Assembly (NCBI GenBank): GCA_021824125.1
Contig: JAKALO010000007.1
Location: forward strand, 1 to 44,922
Origin: Deltaproteobacteria bacterium
Lineage (GTDB): Bacteria; Desulfobacterota; Deferrimicrobia; Deferrimicrobiales; Deferrimicrobiaceae
DNA: 44,922 nucleotides
Reading direction: 5' to 3'
This document shows positions 3,580 to 14,386 of this stretch, piece by piece (the first letter of the stretch is position 1; each line of letters starts with the position of its first letter). The notes under the pieces were generated by a model, which was given only the letters and a program-made list of their open reading frames with translations, had not been told where the DNA came from and made no database searches. A program made the position numbers and the translations under genes.

Positions 3580-4884
3580 TCAGCGGGGGTAGGGGTAGAA
3601 GACGTAGAACGAAAGCGACAGGGCCGCCAGTATCCACATACCCCCCGGCACTTCCCGGTGCCGCCCTGAAAGGGTCTTGAGAAGCGGGTAGGCGATGAGC
3701 CCCGCCGTCATCCCCACGCCGATGTTGTAGGTGAAGCTCATCAGGACGATTGTCAGGAAGGCCGGGATCAGCTCCGTGTAGTCGTCGAAGTCGATCCGGG
3801 TGACGGGTCGGACCATGAACACGCCGATGAGGATCAGGACGGCCCCGTAGGCGTGGGCGGGGACCGCGGTGAGGAGCGGGGCGAAGAAGAGCGATACCAG
3901 GAACAGCGCCGCCACCACGAGAGAGGTGAACCCCGTCCTTCCCCCCTCCTCGATCCCGGCCGCGGACTCGATGTAGGCGCCGGTGGTCGTCGTCCCGAGA
4001 AGGGGCGCCACCGTCGTGGCGAGAGCGTCGGCCAGCATCGGCTTCTCGATGTCCGGAAGGTTCCCTTTCTCGTCCAGCAGGCCCGCCCGGGCGGACAGCC
4101 CGATGAGCGTGCCCACCGTGTCCACGAACGCCATCACGAACATCGTCAGGATGACGGGGAAGAACCCCGGCTGCAGGATTCCCTTGAAATCCAGTTGCAG
4201 AATGATGGGACGCGGGTCCGGGGGAAGGCTCGCCCATTGTCCGGGGGTCGGCGTTACTTTCAGCAGGAACGACAGGAACGTGGTGGCGAGAACGCCTATG
4301 ACGATCGCGCCCGGCACCTTGCGGATCATCAGCAAAACCATCAGGAAGAAGGTGAACAGGGCCAGCAGCCCGGTCGGCCGGGTGATGTCGCCCAGGGAAA
4401 CGGGCGCCCCGGGGACCCCCAGCCGCACGAGCCCTGTCTCGTTGAGACCGATGAAGGTCAGGAAGAGGCCGATGCCGACGGCGAAGCTGAGTTTCAGCGA
4501 CAGCGGGAGCGCCTCGGCCAGCCAGCTTCGGACCTTGAACACCGTGAGCAGGGTGAACAGGACCCCGGCGATGAACACGGCCCCCAGCGCGACCTGCCAG
4601 GGATACCCGAGGACCTTCACCACGGTGAACGCGACGAAGGCGTTTTCCCCCATGTAGGGGGCGATGGCGAAGGGTCGCTTCGCGTACAGGCCCATGACGA
4701 CGGTGCCGAACACGGCGGAAAGGATCGTCGCGACCATGGAAGGGCCCTTGGGGATGCCTGCCGCCTCCAGTATCGCGGGGTTCACGATTATGATGTACGC
4801 CATCGTGAGGAAGGTGGTGACTCCGGCCAGGGTCTCCTGGCGGTAACCGGTGCCGTGGCTCGCGAAGTCGAAGTAGTTCCTCAT
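3580..4884 (-). CDS. NCS2 family permease (AzgA/PbuG-like purine permease)
   Basis: MRNYFDFASHGTGYRQETLAGVTTFLTMAYIIIVNPAIL...; typical NCS2/AzgA N-terminus and about 12 TM segments. Confidence 0.9.
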   Translation of the reverse strand: MRNYFDFASHGTGYRQETLAGVTTFLTMAYIIIVNPAILEAAGIPKGPSMVATILSAVFGTVVMGLYAKRPFAIAPYMGENAFVAFTVVKVLGYPWQVALGAVFIAGVLFTLLTVFKVRSWLAEALPLSLKLSFAVGIGLFLTFIGLNETGLVRLGVPGAPVSLGDITRPTGLLALFTFFLMVLLMIRKVPGAIVIGVLATTFLSFLLKVTPTPGQWASLPPDPRPIILQLDFKGILQPGFFPVILTMFVMAFVDTVGTLIGLSARAGLLDEKGNLPDIEKPMLADALATTVAPLLGTTTTGAYIESAAGIEEGGRTGFTSLVVAALFLVSLFFAPLLTAVPAHAYGAVLILIGVFMVRPVTRIDFDDYTELIPAFLTIVLMSFTYNIGVGMTAGLIAYPLLKTLSGRHREVPGGMWILAALSLSFYVFYPYPR

Positions 4885-13487: not shown

Positions 13488-13785
13488 TCCCCCCCCGAAC
13501 GACCTGGCGGTCGTTCGGGCCAACGGATCTGGCATGCCGTATGCGTCGCTGGGCGATTCCTCGGCGCCCCGTGTGGGCCAGCTGGCGATCGCCATAGGGA
13601 ATCCGCTCGGGTTCCAGTCCAGCGTGTCCACCGGGGTCGTCAGTGCCACGGGGCGCGGCATGCGGAGCCTTGACCGGCACCTCATCGAGTCGGAAGTCGA
13701 GATCCGGAACATCGTGCGCATCGACCTGCTGCGCGGGACGGAACGCAGGGTTTCCGAGGTCGAGCTCGGGGAATCGGCCGCGTAA
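13488..13785 (+). pseudogene. Remnant of HtrA/DegP-type S1C serine protease
   Basis: In-frame NDLAVVRANGSGMPYASLGDSSAPRVGQLAIAIGNPLGFQSSVSTGVVSATGRGMRSLDRHLIE then SEVEIRNIVRIDLLRGTERRVSEVELGES; catalytic Ser region and most of PDZ missing. Confidence 0.75.
13494..13519. repeat. Perfect 11-bp inverted repeat with TGGC loop
   Basis: CCCGAACGACC-TGGC-GGTCGTTCGGG. Confidence 0.9.
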
Positions 13786-13954: not shown

Positions 13955-14056
13955 TTTTCCAATCCAAAATGATATTCCCGCATCCAACATAAAGGATCTC
14001 GAACACGGCGCAAGGTGCGAAGCACGCGTCAGGGAAACGGAAAACAGGGAAGGAAG

Positions 14057-14386
14057 GTGAAAAAAGTGGAAGAGATCATTCGGGTTACCGCGGAGGAGGC
14101 TCGTTCAAGGGCGTCTCGAGGCGAAGCTCTACTGGTCTGCGCATACGAGGATCCGGCTTCATTCCTGTCCATGCATCTGGAGGGTGCGACATCGTTGCAG
14201 GATTTCCGGTCCAGGGTCCCATCCCTTGACCGCAGCCAGGAAATCATCTTCTACTGCGCCTGACCACGGGAAGCCAGCGCTGCCGGTCAGGCAGCCAGGT
14301 CCCAGGCGGATGGATTCATCAACGCGAAGGCCCTTCAGGGCGGGGTAGCGGCTTGGCAGGCCGCCGGCTATCCGTTCGCGGCATAA
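14057..14386 (+). CDS. Rhodanese-like domain protein, candidate selenoprotein (Sec at TGA 14261..14263)
   Basis: GTG start with SD GGGAAGGAA; VKKVEEIIRVTAEEARS...SQEIIFYCA-[TGA]-PREASAAGQAARSQADGFINAKALQGGVAAWQAAGYPFAA*; downstream half of the domain continues in the same frame to TAA at 14384. Confidence 0.8.
14264..14303 (+). promoter_or_regulatory. SECIS-like hairpin immediately downstream of in-frame TGA
   Basis: GCTGCC-GGTCA-GGCAGC (14279..14295), GGT at 14285..14287, 21 nt after TGA; lower stem GGGA/TCCC and CC/GG. Confidence 0.7.

Follow-up and report, generated by a model that had tools for sequence, protein, structure and literature searches.

The window analysed here is a stretch of 44,922 nt from contig JAKALO010000007.1 (GCA_021824125.1) of a Deltaproteobacteria bacterium, a member of the Deferrimicrobiaceae. 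On the forward strand, a mechanical ORF call stops at 82 amino acids because of an in-frame TGA at 14261-14263, and the same frame then stays open to a TAA at 14384-14386, as the first-pass annotation of this DNA had read from the sequence. The features of the locus, which is interpreted below as a gene for a small rhodanese containing selenocysteine (Sec), are as follows.

14050..14057, + strand: Shine-Dalgarno-like sequence AAGGAAGG, 8 nt ahead of GTG 14066 (direct sequence reading, role presumed)
14066..14386, + strand: predicted selenoprotein gene for a single-domain rhodanese, GTG to TAA, 106 amino acids with Sec66 (PF00581, orthologue start alignment, AlphaFold, PDB matches)
14132..14146, + strand: codons for L-V-C-A-Y, Leu23 to Tyr27 (alignments A1 and A3, comparison with D-x-R rhodaneses)
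14249..14263, + strand: active-site motif F-Y-C64-A-U66 (translation, alignments)
14261..14263, + strand: UGA codon, predicted Sec66 (TGA in 29 of 29 strong matches from 396 genomes; same codon in every match read out)
14279..14295, + strand: predicted bacterial SECIS hairpin GCUGCC-GGUCA-GGCAGC (covariation; missing in non-TGA homologues)
14384..14386, + strand: true stop codon TAA (sequence reading)

The start codon is probably the GTG at 14066, from which the length of 106 amino acids and the numbering of Sec66 follow. This codon was preferred because of its 8-nt Shine-Dalgarno spacing and because it lines up with the initiator Met of the orthologues (e.g. MSEIIRV). The GTG at 14057, which had been proposed earlier as the start, directly abuts the Shine-Dalgarno-like sequence and fits less well.

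The read-through frame encodes a complete rhodanese domain, in agreement with the initial description of the product as rhodanese-like. It scores 31.3 bits against the Pfam Rhodanese model PF00581 (gathering cut-off, 22.2), the AlphaFold model is a confident rhodanese (pLDDT 93.9, pTM 0.87), and the best PDB matches of this model are rhodanese domains. The fold is shared with GlpE and other single-domain thiosulfate sulfurtransferases (PDB 1gmx; Alr3790, 3ilm), with query TM-scores of 0.77-0.78. In profile alignments to PDB structures, the canonical catalytic Cys of the active-site loop corresponds to Cys64, and Sec66 is an additional residue located two positions further on in the same loop. 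The TGA had been described as occupying the position of an expected Cys; this is correct in so far as two homologues (L113 and L114) carry Cys there, but the canonical catalytic residue is Cys64. GlpE-type proteins, in which the catalytic Cys likewise aligns with Cys64, lack Sec, contain the D-x-R motif, and do not have a C-x-U loop. In the window protein, the Asp and Arg of the usual D-x-R are replaced by Cys25 and Tyr27, respectively, giving the sequence C-[A/G]-Y that is characteristic of its clade. Residues 25, 64, and 66 are near-invariant as Cys or Sec; in the model, Cys25 forms the end of strand 21-25 and Cys64 lies just past strand 59-63. The strands equivalent to these two are adjacent and parallel in the rhodanese fold, and Cys25, Cys64, and Sec66 may therefore lie together.

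Among 59 relatives, seven homologues were found at 50-60% identity (one of them, L016, aligned over the C-terminal part alone), and all seven contain a single TGA at the same place. A scan of GTDB genome contigs with LVCAY and FYCAC patterns, which is biased to those motifs, yielded 38 loci; the site could be read in 34 C-A-Y members, where the codon is TGA in 31, Cys in two, and Ser in one. The Cys versions (L113 and L114) come from two Planctomycetota and have TGC or TGT in the motif FYCRC, and the Ser version (L109), with AGT, comes from one Acetomicrobium. Because of the pattern bias, the search was repeated on 396 genomes of the phylum with a profile, itself made from pattern-found members. 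At E<=1e-22 it identified 29 matches, located in 28 genomes; every match has an in-frame TGA (one TGA in 26 matches and two in 3). Ten of these matches were read out in full, and TGA is present at this codon in all ten, the three with two TGAs encoding U-x-U. All ten have the sequence [LF]-[VI]-C-[AG]-Y, which indicates that the Cys of this motif is not an artefact of the search pattern. Members of the clade are distributed in Thermodesulfobacteriota and other deltaproteobacterial lineages, Nitrospirota, Planctomycetota, and Synergistota. Two cultured species, Geomesophilobacter sediminis (L100) and Acetomicrobium hydrogeniformans (L094), have TGA orthologues. Such retention of an in-frame UGA in one alignment column, where some homologues have Cys instead, is the pattern of a bacterial selenoprotein. 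Of the grounds for doubt named at the outset, random stops elsewhere in close homologues are not the case, as the TGA is kept at exactly this codon, and a sequencing error for TGC at 14261 is excluded because the TGA is common to dozens of independent genomes.

Several divergent copies were also seen. The Acetomicrobium homologue (L109, 4001-4303) has C-D-S instead of C-x-U, lies on a long branch, lacks the hairpin, and is a copy in which Sec was lost. In L117 and L118 (about 4001-4160), the matches are confined to the N-terminal part ahead of stops; these C-A-Y rhodaneses end before the active site and may be decaying copies.

The hairpin noted earlier downstream of the UGA is present as described: it starts 15 nt past the UGA and consists of GCUGCC (14279-14284), GGUCA (14285-14289), and GGCAGC (14290-14295), with a distance of 21 nt from UGA to GGU. 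It thus has the GU in the apical loop, at a short distance past the UGA, that is looked for in a bacterial SECIS (G or GU). The fold of the single sequence is unremarkable in energy (z = -1.05; 31 of 200 shuffled sequences fold equally well), and the case for a SECIS therefore rests on comparison. In an alignment of 34 distinct orthologues with TGA, 92.6% of the cells for the six stem pairs are paired. The covariation score of 0.329 compares with a shuffled mean of 0.134 and was reached in 0 of 500 shuffles, with a correction for relatedness that is incomplete; slid versions of the hairpin give at most 0.182. The third pair (alignment columns 21 and 33) is paired in all 34 sequences, as C-G (15), U-A (15), G-C (2), A-U (1), and U-G (1). 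Since both columns are codon third positions, mostly of two Ala codons, this covariation is unexplained by protein conservation. The innermost pair changes from C-G to A-U in two orthologues. In a synonymous recoding control, TGA members of the clade have 5.55 of the six pairs versus 4.13 expected (correction for relatedness again incomplete), and six non-TGA homologues have 2.83 versus 2.79 expected; this excess is carried by the ensemble and is insignificant for any one sequence. The hairpin is missing in the Cys orthologues L113 and L114 and in the Ser orthologue L109. Covariation in the 34 orthologues and loss in the Cys and Ser versions bear out the assignment made at first sight, and on this comparative evidence the hairpin is a real SECIS. 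The proposed supporting lower pairs, GGGA/UCCC, were rejected on pair counts: they are paired in 48.5% of cases, equal to the shuffled value (47.9), and are not conserved. An Rfam scan of the window gave a tRNA as its sole match, which has no bearing on the SECIS because short bacterial SECIS hairpins differ between genes.

The host genome, which is 98.6% complete, encodes all four components that the first-pass annotation had listed for checking (selA, selB, selC, and selD), i.e. a tRNA-Sec with anticodon TCA (75.8 bits, above cut-off), SelB (303.8 bits), SelA (567 bits), and SelD (323 bits). The selD gene of this genome (G000:C83:2281-3078, L048) itself contains an in-frame TGA in the motif CAGU and thus specifies a Sec-containing selenophosphate synthetase. 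SelA is present in 27 of 28 gene-bearing genomes (22 of 22 of the high-quality ones) versus 26 of 30 genomes without the gene, so that in this Sec-rich phylum the co-occurrence is consistent with a selenoprotein but not discriminating. TGA is the normal stop codon of carB and other window genes, and the genetic code is thus unaltered. A reading of the UGA as Trp, Gly, or Cys through a changed code or a suppressor, under any of which the frame would equally be open, has a negligible probability given that confirmed window genes such as carB stop at TGA, that the full Sec machinery is present in the host genome, and that Sec-less relatives have Cys at the aligned residue.

These data lead us to interpret the locus as a functional selenoprotein gene in which the UGA at 14261 is read as Sec, with a probability of roughly 95%, the protein itself being deduced from the DNA. 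This reading is preferred to that of a pseudogene or error because of the conserved TGA, the covarying hairpin, the Sec machinery, and the intact rhodanese domain. A TGA that truncates a domain, as in the 82-amino acid ORF call, is the usual sign of a pseudogene, and a Cys rhodanese interrupted by a nonsense TGA or a sequencing error would look the same in a single genome; the same codon is, however, TGA in otherwise intact orthologues of several phyla at 40-60% identity, which already refutes this explanation, and the covarying hairpin past the TGA also speaks against it, leaving it hardly any probability. Genuine termination, in which the half-rhodanese would be the product and the downstream frame a relic, is only marginally more credible and very improbable: other genes of the genome do end normally in TGA, but the downstream half completes the rhodanese fold and is conserved as protein in seven orthologues, in which E72, A76, A79, G86, N89, L93, G95, G96, V97, W100, G104, and P106 (numbering of alignment A1) are invariant.

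Rhodanese selenoproteins with a CxU motif are already known, and the novelty implied in the first description of this gene was thus overstated. NCBIfam NF041203 corresponds to rhodanese-like form 3 in PMC13188914, to which one Sec is given in the table of that review, and COG0607 form 2, with CxU, is listed in PMC9312934. NF041203 (rhodanese_LYCAU, '(seleno)protein') likewise describes a single rhodanese domain with [LF]YCxU (FYCAU in the window protein), a TGA at the same position, and a similar hairpin past the TGA. The members of this family that were read have an N-terminal signal-like segment and the canonical D-V-R, whereas the window protein has neither, and no signal peptide was seen in it. 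It scores 50.4 bits against NF041203, below the curated cut-off of 115, and the match covers only the second half of the model (positions 62-123 of 126). In a tree of 77 rows, built from an alignment of just 110 columns and weak in its inner forks, the C-[A/G]-Y clade lies apart from NF041203 and from fusions of rhodanese to a DedA-like membrane protein, and it forms one side of a branch with 100/97 support that was recovered in 200 of 200 bootstrap trees. The sub-cut-off score, the absence of D-V-R and of the signal-like segment, and the separate clade are the reasons for which the window protein was placed outside NF041203, and from its sequence it is classified as a variant sister to the known rhodanese selenoproteins with CxU.

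The DedA fusions (FYC[TSI]U) have CxU, the TGA, and a hairpin in the same place as the window gene, but their rhodanese is the C-terminal domain of a membrane protein and occupies a separate tree branch. Seven such fusions (L018, L019, L020, L024, L036, L077, and L078) were found in genomes of the family to which the window belongs. The TsoB rhodanese/DsbD fusion-like selenoprotein (NF045694), which is form 5 in PMC13188914 (UxxxxU), is also a rhodanese-domain selenoprotein, but it is a fusion with two Sec residues at another spacing, and NF045694 is matched weakly by just 9 of 32 clade members. None of the family models searched names the C-[A/G]-Y clade. The clade may nevertheless have been recognised earlier; TKB26178.1, an example in PMC13188914, stands outside our comparison.

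In some members, the canonical rhodanese Cys itself becomes Sec, so that both active-site cysteines are replaced (U-x-U). Within the clade, these members are L089, L098, L103, L108, L110, L112, and L134, located on several separate tree branches, and U-x-U also occurs among NF041203-matched sequences (L058, L063, L066, L067, and L074). This distribution suggests that U-x-U apparently arose several times independently. A full-text literature search for UxU together with selenocysteine found no rhodanese paper. We give about even chances to the view that the C-[A/G]-Y clade represents a so far unrecognised subfamily of selenoproteins, nearly always with Sec, in which C-x-U has repeatedly been converted to U-x-U. 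The interest of the finding lies mostly in the clade, with its U-x-U members, and less in the single window gene.

In the proposed mechanism, SelB carrying Sec-tRNA(Sec) would bind the hairpin beyond UGA 14261, and the ribosome would insert selenocysteine and continue to the TAA at 14384. The product would be a small, probably cytosolic rhodanese with a Cys64-Ala-Sec66 loop and an extra conserved Cys25 ending another strand of the sheet. Cys64 would accept or attack a sulfane sulfur or a disulfide, a Sec66-Cys64 selenenylsulfide would then resolve or release it, and Cys25 might serve as a third ligand or a resolving residue. A role in thiol/persulfide redox or sulfur transfer, as judged from the motif, is somewhat favoured, and this chemistry carries much less certainty than the selenoprotein identification. 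It is also conceivable, though rather unlikely, that the protein is a real selenoprotein in which Sec66 belongs to a metal site or to a site for carrying or handling selenium instead of acting in sulfur transfer or redox. The near-invariance of residues 25, 64, and 66, two of which stand where strands 21-25 and 59-63 end, the missing D-x-R of ordinary rhodaneses, and the presence of SelA in nearly all gene-bearing genomes would suit such a site; however, SelA is nearly as frequent in genomes without the gene, which reveals no particular link to selenium handling, and nothing points to metal binding.

The surroundings of the gene contain no conserved neighbours pointing to a pathway: an all-against-all comparison of flanking ORFs returned the gene's own shadow ORFs and small scattered clusters. 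PADLOC gave no match for anti-phage defence, and plasmid records contained one weak match (35% identity). A partial trypsin-like protease of the HtrA type lies at 13534-13785 of the window; it scores 24.9 bits against PF13365, under that model's cut-off of 27.6, its C-terminal end is unusual, and it is probably the remnant of a gene.

Because standard gene callers would split such genes at the UGA, a widespread branch of rhodaneses that nearly always contain Sec is likely annotated as fragments. The CxU, UxU, CxC, and CxS versions of one small protein, whose size of 106 amino acids is convenient for expression, provide a clean set for assessing the contribution of selenium to rhodanese chemistry. 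If the proposed subfamily is confirmed, its U-x-U members would represent a double-selenium (diselenide or selenopersulfide) rhodanese chemistry that is absent from PMC13188914 and PMC9312934.
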